DNA from: Halorubrum salipaludis
GTDB taxonomy: Archaea; Halobacteriota; Halobacteria; Halobacteriales; Haloferacaceae
Direction of reading: 5' to 3'
Length of the DNA stretch: 64,000 nucleotides
NCBI RefSeq assembly: GCF_002286985.1
Contig: NZ_NSKC01000001.1
Coordinates: 1 to 64,000 of the forward strand
Shown here piece after piece: positions 12,606 through 64,000 of this stretch; the stretch's first letter is position 1, and each line of letters opens with the position of its first letter. The translations under genes and the position numbers were made by a program. The notes beneath the pieces are model-generated. The model did no database searches and was not told where the DNA came from. It saw only the letters and a list, made by a program, of their open reading frames with translations.

Positions 12606-14015
12606 ATGCAAATCGTCACCGACCAGGATGTCGTCGTCGTAGGCTGTGGGATCGCCGGACTGAGCGCGGCCAACCGCGCGGTCGAGCAGGGGTTAGACGT
12701 CACCGTTCTGGAGAAGTCGCCGAAGGACAAGCGAGGGGGGCACACGCGGTACAGCGAGTCGTTCCGGGTCGCGTCGTCGGACTCTGACCTCGAGGAGTAC
12801 GGCTACGAGTACAACATCGACGACTACACGCCCGACGACTTCTACGCGGACATCATGAAGCAGACGAACGGGCGGGCCGACGAGGACCTGGCCCGGACCA
12901 TCGTCGACAACATCGGCCCCACGGTCGACTGGCTCACCGAGCGCGGCGTGAGCTGGGACATGGAGCCGCTCAACGTCGGGTACACGGTCGCGCGGACGTT
13001 CTTCGACGGCGAGGAGCTCGTCGCGGACCTCGTGGAGGCCGCCGAGGAGCAGGGCGCGACGTTCGAGTACCGCACCGAGGCCCGCGAGATCCTGTTCGAC
13101 GACGGGGCGGTGTCCGGGCTCCGCGCCCGCAACGACGACGGCGACGTCGAGTACCGCGCCGACGCCGTGGTCGTCGCCGCCGGCGGCTACGAGTCGAGCG
13201 AGGAGAAGCGGACCCGGTACTACGGCTCCGACTACGACGCGATGAAGGTCCGCGGCAGCCGGTACAACACCGGCGAGGGGATCGAGATGGTCCTCGACGC
13301 GGGCGCCCGCGCGGACGGGCAGTGGGGCGGGGCCCACATGGCGCTCATCGACAGCGAGTCGCCCGACTACGAGGGCGGCGCGAACCGTGTCGACGGGTAC
13401 CAGTACGGCGTGCTGTTGAACAACGACGGCGAGCGCTTCTTCGACGAGGGCGAGGACGCCCGCGCCCACACGTACGCCAAGCTCGGCCGGATCATCTTCG
13501 AGGAGCCCGGTCACGAGGCGTTCATCGTCATCGACGACCCCCTGAAAGAGCACATGCGCGCGACCGGACCGGGCGGCTGGGTGACCGGCGACACGGTCGA
13601 GGAGGTGCTCTCCGAGCTCGGCTGCGAGGAGCCCGAGGAGGGGGCCGCGACCGTGGACGCGTTCAACGCGGCGACGGACCCCGGGGAGTTCGACCCCGAC
13701 TCGCTCGACGGGAACCACACGGACGGACTCGATCTCGAGAAGTCCAACTGGGCGCTGCCGCTCGACGAGCCGCCGTACCACGGGTACCGCGTCACCGGCG
13801 GGATCACGTTCGGCTTCGGCGGCGCGGCGACGGACGACCGCGCCCGCGCGCTCGACACGATCGGCCGTCCGATCCCCGGGCTGTACGTCGCGGGCAACAC
13901 CACCGGCGGGCTGTTCTTCGACAACTACCCGGGCGGGACCGGTCTCGCCAACGGGGCCGTGTTCGGGAAGATCGCCGCCGAAGAGACGGCCGAGTACATC
14001 GAGGGAGCAGAATGA
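12606..14015 (+). CDS. FAD-dependent dehydrogenase, TcuA-like, paralogue 2
   Basis: This is a 469-aa paralogue of the protein at 398-1825, with the same motif order: [16 protein letters not shown] at the N-terminus, [43 protein letters not shown], and [18 protein letters not shown] at the C-terminus. The family is fumarate reductase/tricarballylate dehydrogenase-like. A GTG at 12600 could also start it, adding two residues; ATG 12606 is preferred. Its stop overlaps the ATG of the prpF-like gene (ATGA), so the two products are made together and probably act in sequence. One attractive reading is FAD-dependent desaturation of a carboxylate followed by isomerisation of the new double bond. That is inference from context. 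Confidence 0.9.
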
Positions 14016-34574: not shown

Positions 34575-35441
34575 ATGAGCACCATCGGCTTCATCGGCGG
34601 CAGCGGCATCTACGAGGCGCTGCCCCTCAACGACGTGCGCGAGGTTGAGTACGACACGCCCTACGGCGAGCCCAGCGACGCGATCACGATCGGCGAGTTC
34701 GCGGACACCGGCAAGGAGGTCGCCTTCCTCCCCCGGCACGGCTCGGACCACGGCGTCTCGCCCACGGACCTCCCGTACCGCGCGAACATGTACGCGCTGA
34801 AGCAGGCGGGCGTCACCCACGTCTTCGCGTCGAACGCGGTCGGGAGCTTAAAAGAGGAGCTGGAGCCCGGCACGCTCGTCGTGCCCGACCAGATCTACGA
34901 CCGGACGAAGCACCGCGATCTGTCCTTCTACGGCGACGGCGTCGTCGTCCACCAGCCGTTCGCCGATCCGTACAGCCCGGAGCTGGTCGACCACCTCACC
35001 GAGGCCGCGGAGGCCTCCACCTCCCCCGACACGGACGTCGTGAAGGGCGGCACCTACGTCTGCATCGAGGGCCCGCAGTACTCCACGCGCGCGGAGTCGG
35101 AGTTTTATAAGGCCCAAGGGTGGGACCTGGTCGGCATGACCGCGATCCCGGAGGCGAAGCTCGCCCGCGAGGCCGAGATCGCGTACGCGACGATCGCCGG
35201 CGTCACCGACTACGACGTGTGGAAGGAGGACAGCGAGGTGACGCTCGAAGAGGTGCTGGAGAACGCCGAGCAGAACCAGAAAGCGATCAAGGCCGCCGTC
35301 GAGGAGGCCGTCCGGTCGCTCCCGGACGACTTAGAGTGCGAGGCGCACACCTCGCTGGAAGGGACGGTCAACACGCCCACCGAGGCGATCCCGGAGGCGA
35401 CGCGCGACCGCGTCGAGCCGCTTCTGGGTGACTACTTATAA
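34575..35441 (+). CDS. mtnP: S-methyl-5'-thioadenosine phosphorylase
   Basis: This 288-aa purine phosphorylase (PNP/MTAP family) cleaves methylthioadenosine to adenine and 5-methylthioribose-1-phosphate for methionine salvage. It has IGFIGGSGIYEA at the N-terminus, FLPRHGSDHGVSPTDLPYRAN (phosphate/ribose site, abbreviated FLPRHG...PYRAN), SNAVGSL, CIEGPQYSTRAES, and GMTAIPEAKLAREAEIAYA (base site). A TATA box (CGTATAAGTAG, about 34544-34553) gives a leaderless start at 34575. The last Leu codon and the stop (TTATAA) form part of a CTTATAA box that borders dispersed repeat copy A. Confidence 0.96.
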   Translation: MSTIGFIGGSGIYEALPLNDVREVEYDTPYGEPSDAITIGEFADTGKEVAFLPRHGSDHGVSPTDLPYRANMYALKQAGVTHVFASNAVGSLKEELEPGTLVVPDQIYDRTKHRDLSFYGDGVVVHQPFADPYSPELVDHLTEAAEASTSPDTDVVKGGTYVCIEGPQYSTRAESEFYKAQGWDLVGMTAIPEAKLAREAEIAYATIAGVTDYDVWKEDSEVTLEEVLENAEQNQKAIKAAVEEAVRSLPDDLECEAHTSLEGTVNTPTEAIPEATRDRVEPLLGDYL

Positions 35442-35443
35442 AC
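35435..35443 (+). promoter_or_regulatory. TATA-like box overlapping the mtnP stop codon
   Basis: ACTTATAAAC spans the final Leu-stop codons of mtnP. It lies 16-20 nt before dispersed repeat copy A, near the distance expected for transcription start within the first hairpin. The same arrangement precedes copy C at 63729-63738. Confidence 0.5.
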
Positions 35444-35450
35444 TGAACCC

Positions 35451-35762
35451 GCGATGCGGCGGCGCGTGCCGCCGAGCGCCCGACGGGCGCGAGGTGCACG
35501 CGCGAGGGAGCGGTGAGCGCTCGGAGAGCGCGAACCACGAGGCTGGGGAGGTATGAGGTGCGGTGCTGTGCGGGGCGGGTGGGACTCAAAGGGGCAGCCG
35601 CGAGGACGACGCTTGGCGACGCAAGCACCGCAGGGAGCGAGTGAAACGAGCGACCGAGGAGCGCAGCGAGCCACGCGAGTCGTCGCGGCTGGGGCTCTGG
35701 AGGTGTTCACTGTCGATCCGCCGTGACCGACCGCTTATAACCGAGCGGCTGCGGATCTGGAG
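35451..35762 (+). repeat. Dispersed hairpin repeat, copy A
   Basis: Order of elements: GGCGGC-GCGT-GCCGCC hairpin (35458-35473); GCGCCC-GAC-GGGCGC (35476-35490); CACGCGCGAGG; one variable hairpin GCGCTC-GGA-GAGCGC with outer GGT/ACC (35512-35536); conserved core GAGGCTGGGGAGG ... GACTCAAAGGGGCAG ... AAGCACCGCA (35539-35632); GTCGTCGCGGCTGGGGCT; and a CGCTTATAACCGAG box (35733-35746). The copy fills the gap between mtnP and the convergent scpA. No reading frame in it resembles a protein family. Confidence 0.8.
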
Positions 35763-44439: not shown

Positions 44440-44893
44440 GAAGCCCCAGCGGCTCGGTTATAAGCGGTTGCTCGTCGATCGAGGATGAACACCTACCTCC
44501 AAAGCCCCAGTCGCGACGACTCGCACGACTCGTTGCGCTCCTCAGTCGCTCGCGGTGCTCGCTCCTTGCGGTGCTTACGTCGTCGAGCTTCGTCCTCGCG
44601 ACTGCCCCTTTGAGTCCCGCCCCGCACGGCACCCGCACCTCACGCCTCCCCAGCCTCGTCACCGGACTACGTCCGGTTGCAAGCGAGAGCTTCGCTCTCG
44701 CCCTGTCGCTGGCGCCGACGGCGCCAGCGACTCCAGCGAGGGACCTCCGGTCCCTCTGGCAGCGAGGGACGGAGTCCCTCGGGCAACCGGGCTCCGCCCG
44801 GTGACAGCCGGAGCGTAGCGCCGGCGACCTCGCGCGTGCTCCTCACGGCCGCCCCCGGCGGCCGTTCGGAGGCACGCGCCACCGCAGTCGGTG
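44440..44893 (-). repeat. Dispersed hairpin repeat, copy B (longest, nine hairpins)
   Basis: It is oriented minus. From its 5' end: GG.GGC-GCGT-type hairpin (44868-44883), ACGGCCGCC-3-GGCGGCCGT (44845-44865), then seven more at 44807-44825, 44786-44802, 44763-44781, 44738-44756, 44705-44731, 44683-44701 and 44661-44677. Six of those seven have 3-nt loops. The conserved core (GAGGCTGGGGAGG, GACTCAAAGGGGCAG, AAGCACCGCA on the minus strand) occupies about 44560-44660. The CGCTTATAACCGAG box is at 44453-44466. It lies between divergent ncsA and DUF4442 genes. Confidence 0.8.
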
Positions 44894-63061: not shown

Positions 63062-63736
63062 ATGGACGAGAAGACCTCCGAGCTCCGCGATCTCTTCGTC
63101 GAGACCACCGGGTCCGAGACGGTGACCGAGCGGCAGGCGGAGTCGCGCGGGACGCTCACCGACCGCGACGAGGCGGCGGTCGACGAGCGGCTCCGCGAGC
63201 TCGTCGCCGCGATGCGCGAGCGCTACGACTTCTCGACCGACCTCGACGACGCGACCTACGTCCGGATCGCTCGCGGGCGCTTCGAGGAGGAGGACGACGA
63301 GGCGATCGCGACCGCGCTCGTCGAGGAGCGCGAGGCCGACGGGGACGGCGATGGGGCGGGAGGCGAGTCGGGCGCCCCGCCCGTCGTCGACCCCGGAACG
63401 GTCCGCGACGCCCGGCTCGACCTCCACCTCGTCCGCGAGGCCGACCGCGAGGTCGGCGACGCCGCGTTCGCGTACGACGACCTGAAGCAGTTGACCGCCG
63501 AGGGTCGCTCGATCCCGGAGTGCGCCGAGGCGCTCGACGCCGACCCCGACGCCGTCGCGAAACACGCCCGCGTCGCCCGCGTGGACCTGACCTCCACCCG
63601 CGCGAACGACCGCTTCCGCGACGAGTTCCGCGACCTCCTCACCGACGCCGAGATCGAGGGCTCACACGCCGAGACCGCCCGCGACGACGGCCTCGAAGAG
63701 GCGACCGAGGACATCGAGACCGACGTTTCCTTATAA
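63062..63736 (+). CDS. Conditioned-medium-induced protein 4-like haloarchaeal protein
   Basis: This 224-aa acidic protein starts MDEKTSELRDLFVETTGSE, the beginning shared by haloarchaeal proteins annotated conditioned medium-induced protein 4. It contains ERYDFSTDLDD, an acidic Gly linker (about residues 99-118) and helical segments with a possible HTH-like stretch (YDDLKQLTAEGRSIPECAE, DPDAVAKHARVAR). Function is not established; the annotation name reflects expression, not activity. TATA-like GGCTTATTTG (about 63028-63037) supports ATG 63062. The last codon and stop (TTATAA) are part of a CTTATAA box next to repeat copy C. Confidence 0.85.
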   Translation: MDEKTSELRDLFVETTGSETVTERQAESRGTLTDRDEAAVDERLRELVAAMRERYDFSTDLDDATYVRIARGRFEEEDDEAIATALVEEREADGDGDGAGGESGAPPVVDPGTVRDARLDLHLVREADREVGDAAFAYDDLKQLTAEGRSIPECAEALDADPDAVAKHARVARVDLTSTRANDRFRDEFRDLLTDAEIEGSHAETARDDGLEEATEDIETDVSL

Positions 63737-63739
63737 ACC

Positions 63740-64000
63740 GAACTGCGGTCGGCGCGTGCCGGCGAGCGGGCCATCGGCCCGCGAGCCGCACGCGCGAGGG
63801 AGTCGCTGGCGCCTTATAAGGCGCCAGCGACAGGGCGAGAGCGAAGCTCTCGCTTGCAACCGGACGTAGTCCGGTGACGAGGCTGGGGAGGCGTGAGGCT
63901 GCTGTGCGGGGTGGGACTCAAAGGGGCAGCCGGGAGGACGGCGCAGGCGACACAAGCACCGCAACGAGGGAGCGATAGCGACCGAGTGAGGAGCGTGGTT
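63740..64000 (+). repeat. Dispersed hairpin repeat, copy C (cut by the window end)
   Basis: Elements in order: CGGC-GCGT-GCCG (63750-63761); GCGGGCC-ATC-GGCCCGC (63766-63782); CACGCGCGAGG; a perfect 30-nt palindrome GTCGCTGGCGCCTTA plus its complement (63802-63831); GCGAGAGC-GAA-GCTCTCGC (63835-63853); ACCGGAC-GTA-GTCCGGT (63859-63875); then the core from GAGGCTGGGGAGG (63879) to AAGCACCGCA (about 63963). It starts four nucleotides after the stop codon of the preceding gene. Its 3' end lies outside the window. Confidence 0.8.

Follow-up and report, generated by a model that had tools for sequence, protein, structure and literature searches.

The array of nine hairpins at 44661–44883 of the window (the whole 64,000-nt stretch of Halorubrum salipaludis DNA that was analysed, with a haloarchaeal G+C content of 70%) probably arose because a mini-element of 45–51 bp, with the structure TC-hp1-TGCCA-hp2-GCTG (hp, hairpin), was inserted three times into one repeat, copy B, and one of these times inside an earlier insertion. 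By the same joint and equally probable reading, copy B itself belongs to an intergenic hairpin element that is class-wide in haloarchaea and is composed of domain I, a C-rich linker, a closing hairpin and domain III. Both the pairing of the hairpins as inserted 45–51-bp units and the start of the element at about 44500 lay outside the view of a preliminary description of this DNA, which had recognized the array.

We counted seven perfect stems in the array with a length of at least 6 bp; 300 first-order Markov sequences of matching composition gave 1.6 on average and never more than 5. Six of the seven have loops of 3 nt, which bears out the preliminary description of serial hairpins within 223 nt that mostly enclose three bases. 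The total reaches eight to nine hairpins when the imperfect hairpin at 44807–44825 and the outer helix at about 44829–44890 are added, and the loop of the closing hairpin (44705–44731) can be read as either 1 nt or 3 nt (GAC). In the entire window, stems of at least 8 bp with 3-nt loops occur only within 44683–44865 and at 63835–63853 and 21397. Unit U, the first of the three insertions (Table 1), reads TC-(ACCGGAC-TAC-GTCCGGT)-TGCAA-(GCGAGAGC-TTC-GCTCTCGC)-CCTG, and its right half is present in six identical copies in the host genome, all of them within elements. Unit D, once the nested unit is taken out, matches the unit of locus L244 except for one substitution and the inversion of a loop (GGA in place of TCC). 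The earlier comparison of the window's copies was correct in that copy A has the closing hairpin alone and copy C shares the first unit and the closing hairpin with copy B; the match of copy C to the 'last three' variable hairpins also stands, but their order does not, as they are the first three once the strand is counted.

Table 1. Parts of copy B and positions of copies A and C in the window.
Feature	Position	Strand	Basis or remark
Upstream unit of about 57 bp with TTATAA box and diverged AAGCCCCAG start	44441–44499	+	Tandem in other copies (L014/L042, others); sequence
Terminal motif GAACACCTACCTCCAAAGCCCC	44487–44508	+	Other genera: matching motif at both ends of inverted pair
Domain I, long imperfect hairpin CAAAG-(CCC)-CAGTCGCGACGAC...GTCCTCGCGACTG-(CCC)-CTTTG	44500–44612	-	Inverted repeat; covariation; covariance model match 44496–44623
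Conserved linker AGTCCCGCCC...CACCTCACGCCTCCCCAGCCTCG, C-rich (minus strand: G-rich)	44613–44658	+	Alignment of 68 copies
Twin-hairpin unit 1 (U), 47 bp	44659–44705	+	52 empty-site matches; insertion point CTCG^TCGCTGG
Closing hairpin c, GTCGCTGGCGCC-GAC-GGCGCCAGCGAC	44705–44731		Present in ordinary copies
Twin-hairpin unit 2 (D), opposite orientation	44734–44827	-	49 bp without nested insert; L112, same locus, has D without nested unit
Twin-hairpin unit 3 (45 bp), inserted within unit 2 at its TG^CCA joint	44760–44804	-	Nine empty-site matches; sequence
Domain III, right conserved block, CCTCGCGCGTGC-hairpin (loop CCC)-GCACGCGCCACCGCA	44828–44890		40 matches in own genome
Copy A, closing hairpin only, between convergent genes	35435–35754	-	Sequence comparison; covariance model
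Copy C, unit U and closing hairpin with TTATAA centre	63730–64000	-	Extends beyond window end

Across the fetched loci we found 53 units of 45–51 bp that follow the formula TC-(RCCGG..CCGGY)-TGCCA/TGCAA/TTCCA-(hp2)-(G)CTG. For 49 of them an exact empty site, that is the joined flanks intact with at most one mismatch, is present elsewhere, mostly in other copies of the element. The unit is preceded by a G in 50 of the 53 cases, and the boundaries given by the empty sites are exact with an ambiguity of at most 1 bp (this G); in principle, precise deletions could also leave such sites. Eight or more insertion positions were observed, including the site of unit D with its inverted orientation, the unit's own TG^CCA joint, the junction between linker and closing hairpin, the closing hairpin's loop, and two positions each in domain III and domain I. 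The length of the variable middle is discrete, with one closing hairpin in about 80 copies, one extra hairpin pair in about 25 and more in a few, and copy B has the most hairpins among the copies free of assembly gaps. When the host genome was searched with a pattern of hp1 and the joint, 35 matches were obtained compared with eight for the reversed control. Clean palindromic units account for 30 of the 35, of which 23 lie in elements detected by the covariance model, three in element remnants and four inside protein genes; the unit is nearly restricted to this element family and to in-frame copies in genes.

The intergenic site of copy B carries different alleles among the congeners, namely the closing hairpin only, a remnant, unit U with the closing hairpin (L117) or the closing hairpin with unit D (L112), besides the copy B allele with unit U, the closing hairpin and unit D with its nested unit. 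The element is absent from this site in L119, L129, L131, L133 and L140, and L139 has a different hairpin array inside domain I. Hence, where the preliminary description had proposed to compare copies across strains, one locus compared among Halorubrum species shows units gained and lost whole, which is not the behavior of ordinary drifting sequence. Its idea that whole hairpins come and go holds to the extent that alleles differ by units; the unit of gain is not the single hairpin, however, but a fixed pair with conserved joints. At the copy B locus, domain I is 81.4% identical between species compared with 82–83% for random elements, and since it is no more alike there than between random elements, the sequence of the element turns over with its position kept. 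L139 and L150, which come from species of different families, have a further type of twin-hairpin insert in the domain I loop (TCGTTC-hp-GTGATGAC-hp-GAACCACG).

The element extends over about 400 bp, and its parts in plus-strand order are the TTATAA-bearing unit, domain I, the C-rich linker, the variable middle and domain III. In the host genome, a covariance model built on domain I detects at least 126 copies, which is a lower bound since only 150 candidates were scored, and it matches 109 of 145 Halobacteria genomes and 45 of 58 genera; all copy counts are lower bounds, and the sampling of loci is biased towards good matches. In the host genome nearly all matches fall on eight contigs (about 3.0 Mb in total), with one place in the remaining 0.5 Mb. 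Plasmids gave six weak matches, viral contigs one and the phage collection that was searched none, and the motif GCCCCTTTSAGTCCCRCCC matches almost exclusively Halobacteria. A literature search on the sequence motifs of the element returned unrelated papers only, and a tRNA/tmRNA scan found none. An ORF reading of the element was dropped because its stems covary without a codon pattern. A 450-bp version with terminal inverted repeats (TGATYGANNNCGGGAGTRRGT) makes up 20 of 154 Halorubrum copies and is amplified only in three Halorubrum species (G000, G015 and G003), indicating that the host element is mobile now or was so recently. Two motifs recur in the outer flanks of this MITE-like version (L040/L041), their order varying, as though insertion into another repeat had taken place both ways. 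Two further variations of the element were noted. The unit of about 57 bp upstream of domain I is repeated in tandem up to four times in L014, L042, L083 and L090, for which promoter-like, iteron-like or histone-scale spacing roles may be raised, and a structured insert of about 85 bp (CGGAAGACG...CGACTTCCG and a hairpin) is found in the linker in L114 and L124, from two species.

Covariation in domain I is very strong, as 22–25 of 30 pairs change on both sides in two sets, none of 500 shuffles reached this level and sliding the partner abolishes it. Covarying secondary structure is what characterizes a structured non-coding RNA, and domain I might be read as such an RNA transcribed from the minus strand, with the extra hairpins as tolerated or functional expansion segments. 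We limited the strand test to base-paired columns, because a count of all isolated mismatches is dominated by fixed internal-loop mismatches and was rejected. In these columns the minus strand has about three times as many G.T as A.C (57:17, or 48:17 with strand-neutral alignments), the internal loops of domain I are purine-rich on the same strand and TATA-like boxes are present in the flanks. This minus-strand bias is suggestive only, and a per-column sign test on G.T versus A.C is not significant. In other genera, however, the usual form of domain I is an inverted pair with a spacing of 16–280 bp, and at these 21 loci each arm favours its own strand, so that no single transcript fits; the inverted pairs agree better with a DNA element than with one RNA. 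A given stem moreover carries a GNA loop in some cases and the inverted TNC loop in others, units are inserted in domain I helices, an Rfam scan of the window gave no match and in codirectional contexts the element shows no preference for the strand of the genes (16 versus 13). An RNA as the basis of the element thus appears unlikely to us.

In Halorubrum itself the domain I arm is mostly single, and in L156, L170 and L240 a middle of the Halorubrum type sometimes lies between inverted domain I arms. The letters just outside the arms match the other end of their own element at 6.05 of 12 positions compared with 4.55 of 12 for other elements, which was reached in none of 2000 shuffles, with the relatedness of the species uncontrolled. 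In L149–L173, L183, L199, L215, L222 and L239 the outer variable letters of the inverted pairs match end to end, as if templated together.

In 38 of 75 and 33 of 97 cases (34–51%) the genes on either side of an element converge, an over-representation against the baseline of 20%, with the gene context taken from a simple home-made ORF caller. This placement, the near confinement to the chromosome and the inverted doublets in other genera would suit an element of the REP/BIME kind that the host retains, perhaps as a gyrase or supercoil sink where genes converge, with the hairpins adding cruciform capacity. We judge this no more probable than the RNA, given that the element is often missing at orthologous sites and has no detected match in 36 of the 145 genomes, and that tolerance alone suffices for the convergent placement; the data do not require a host function. 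REP, BIME and REPIN sequences are extragenic palindromes with more than 100 copies per genome that form inverted doublets with short spacers (PMC3116915, PMC2817692). The haloarchaeal element resembles them in its 126 copies in the host genome (a lower bound) and in the 21 inverted pairs of other genera, but it is archaeal, has arms of about 110 nt with covarying stems and carries the extra twin-hairpin units. A linked Y1 transposase (RAYT) was looked for next to the elements of the host genome and not found, the single Y1 transposase found in this genome being located on contig C3, which is without elements.

The four host ORFs that contain the unit encode two HisKA/HATPase histidine kinases, in which it follows the N-box (ENLFRNSVEHGSTGSRTKSGDSVEHGG), a CHY zinc-finger protein with units in tandem and a protein without a Pfam match. 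By peptide search, the in-frame 15-aa repeat SVEHGSTGSRTxSGD was found without internal stops in 36 of the 145 Halobacteria genomes, typically at the N-box of histidine kinases, and on plasmids the annotated genes that contain it are mostly those of sensor histidine kinases. Of 52 intervals between repeats, 40 measure 15 aa (45 bp) and most of the remainder 16 or 17 aa; units that lie between genes have for the most part 47 or 49 bp, so the frame is kept only where it is needed. The DNA that encodes the repeat retains many hairpins, of which 91 of 93 are closed by a C-G pair and 28 of 93 have GNA or TNC loops, a less strict loop class as expected where codons constrain the sequence. Homology between the units in kinases and those between genes is suggested by about 45 bp and a shared grammar consisting of the TC start, the RCCGGAC stem, the TGCCA joint and the GCTG end. 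Loci with the 15-aa repeat were noted at G000:C21:211924-212028, C27:53642-53746, C12:228887-228955 and L328–L357.

Perfect hairpins with 3-nt loops occur at 1.90 per kb inside the elements and 0.30 per kb outside, a 6.4-fold difference. The loops are of the GNA/TNC class in two thirds of those inside (200 of 297) compared with 13% outside (36 of 276; p about 4e-42), and a C-G pair closes 97% (288 of 297) compared with 45% (124 of 276). DNA mini-hairpins of extraordinary stability, as described in PMC4686876, have C-(GNA)-G as their loop, and GCGAAGC is given a melting temperature of 78°C there. The d(GC-GNA-GC) hairpins that this paper cites from Hirao and Yoshizawa share the GNA loop closed by C-G with the haloarchaeal repeat; they are known as a structural motif in vitro, whereas the repeat uses this loop class systematically. 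Identical stems carry a loop or its reverse complement (TAC/GTA, GAA/TTC, GGA/TCC), and a change from GAA to TTC would amount to three substitutions. Inversion of the loop is a documented outcome of template switching (PMC8604942), by which arms are homogenised as well (PMC8604942; PMC8794818). Two copies at unrelated sites of the host genome, L040/L041 (G000:C26:215474-215929 and C23:117693-118148), are 98% identical over 400 bp, and their core differs only by two adjacent compensated pair flips (G-C to C-G) in the domain I stem. The near-identical copies L012/L047, L073/L090 and L085/L087 were likewise seen to differ mainly by compensated changes of both arms. Loop inversions and stem changes compensated on both sides make it likely that hairpins are processed at the DNA level, by template switching, on these stems, and hence covariation here need not mean RNA.

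The weakest reading is that local template switching at a fragile palindrome produces fold-back hairpins as a mere by-product of replication, without any mobile unit; it agrees with the loop inversions and both-arm changes, which are signatures of this process, and with the repetition of the gene's own SVEHG codons in some kinase hairpins, but three findings largely refute it as the origin of the array and leave it very improbable: one recurrent unit, its joints unchanged, is found at eight or more positions and also in unrelated genes, unit U is nearly identical in many species, and the empty sites are exact. The preliminary description had considered slippage at palindromes, and this part of it survives as a process that likely maintains the stems; local slippage is insufficient as an explanation since the same unit recurs at so many positions and in unrelated genes.

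To return to the inserted twin-hairpin unit, it would spread as DNA, folding into hyperstable mini-hairpins when single-stranded or extruded. It may be copied by hairpin-guided template switching or by a putative hairpin-recognising enzyme, and the same process would keep both arms complementary. As judged from sequence, movement as DNA is the mode we infer, and the unit is presumably selfish or near neutral, a palindromic mini-element for which the host element may serve as a safe landing site. More tentatively, and with odds that we place below even, it could represent a minimal mobile unit of about 45 bp made of two hyperstable mini-hairpins that combines enzyme-free hairpin-guided copying, self-nesting, a class-wide landing element and lengthening of the N-box in sensor kinases.

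Rickettsia palindromic elements are short palindromic DNA units of a sequence family of 100–150 bp in Rickettsia, which occur between genes and in frame inside protein-coding genes. The twin-hairpin unit is likewise found in frame in unrelated ORFs, but it differs from that family in being archaeal and 45–51 bp long, consists of two hairpins with C-GNA-G loops and is concentrated in a single family of intergenic elements and in the N-boxes of histidine kinases. Transposase-free haloarchaeal repeats, the PATEs and SMR-A, are described for Haloquadratum walsbyi in the part of PMC3119063 devoted to them. There, SMR-A are small repeats that insert mainly into other mobile elements without target duplication, and PATEs have near-terminal palindromes; copies in frame within genes do not figure in that part. 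PATEs are further marked by ends related to IS605-type transposons and by a lack of terminal inverted repeats. Our units resemble SMR-A in lying mostly within one element family, without target duplication and with exact empty sites, but terminal inverted repeats are not part of the unit, which starts with TC-RCCGG and ends with GCTG. The element as a whole, with hairpins near its ends in domains I and III, no transposase gene and about 400 bp, resembles a PATE; it differs in being class-wide and mostly chromosomal. As for terminal inverted repeats, they are present in the 450-bp version and, in imperfect form, in the inverted pairs. The twin-hairpin unit works like both Rickettsia palindromic elements and SMR-A, yet it is a member of neither because size, ends or sequence differ.

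If our reading is right, archaea possess in this unit a counterpart of in-frame palindromic elements that is smaller than the known ones and has defined empty sites, so that the mode of its movement becomes testable. It would then offer a natural case for tracing DNA hairpin stability (C-GNA-G), loop inversion and compensated stem changes, would mean that processes acting on DNA can produce strong 'RNA-like' covariation and would account for the repeated SVEHGSTGSRTxSGD peptides in haloarchaeal sensor kinases. Elsewhere in the window, positions 465–1801 and 12633–13966 form an inverted pair of stretches of about 1.35 kb that are 70% identical and have the appearance of paralogous genes.
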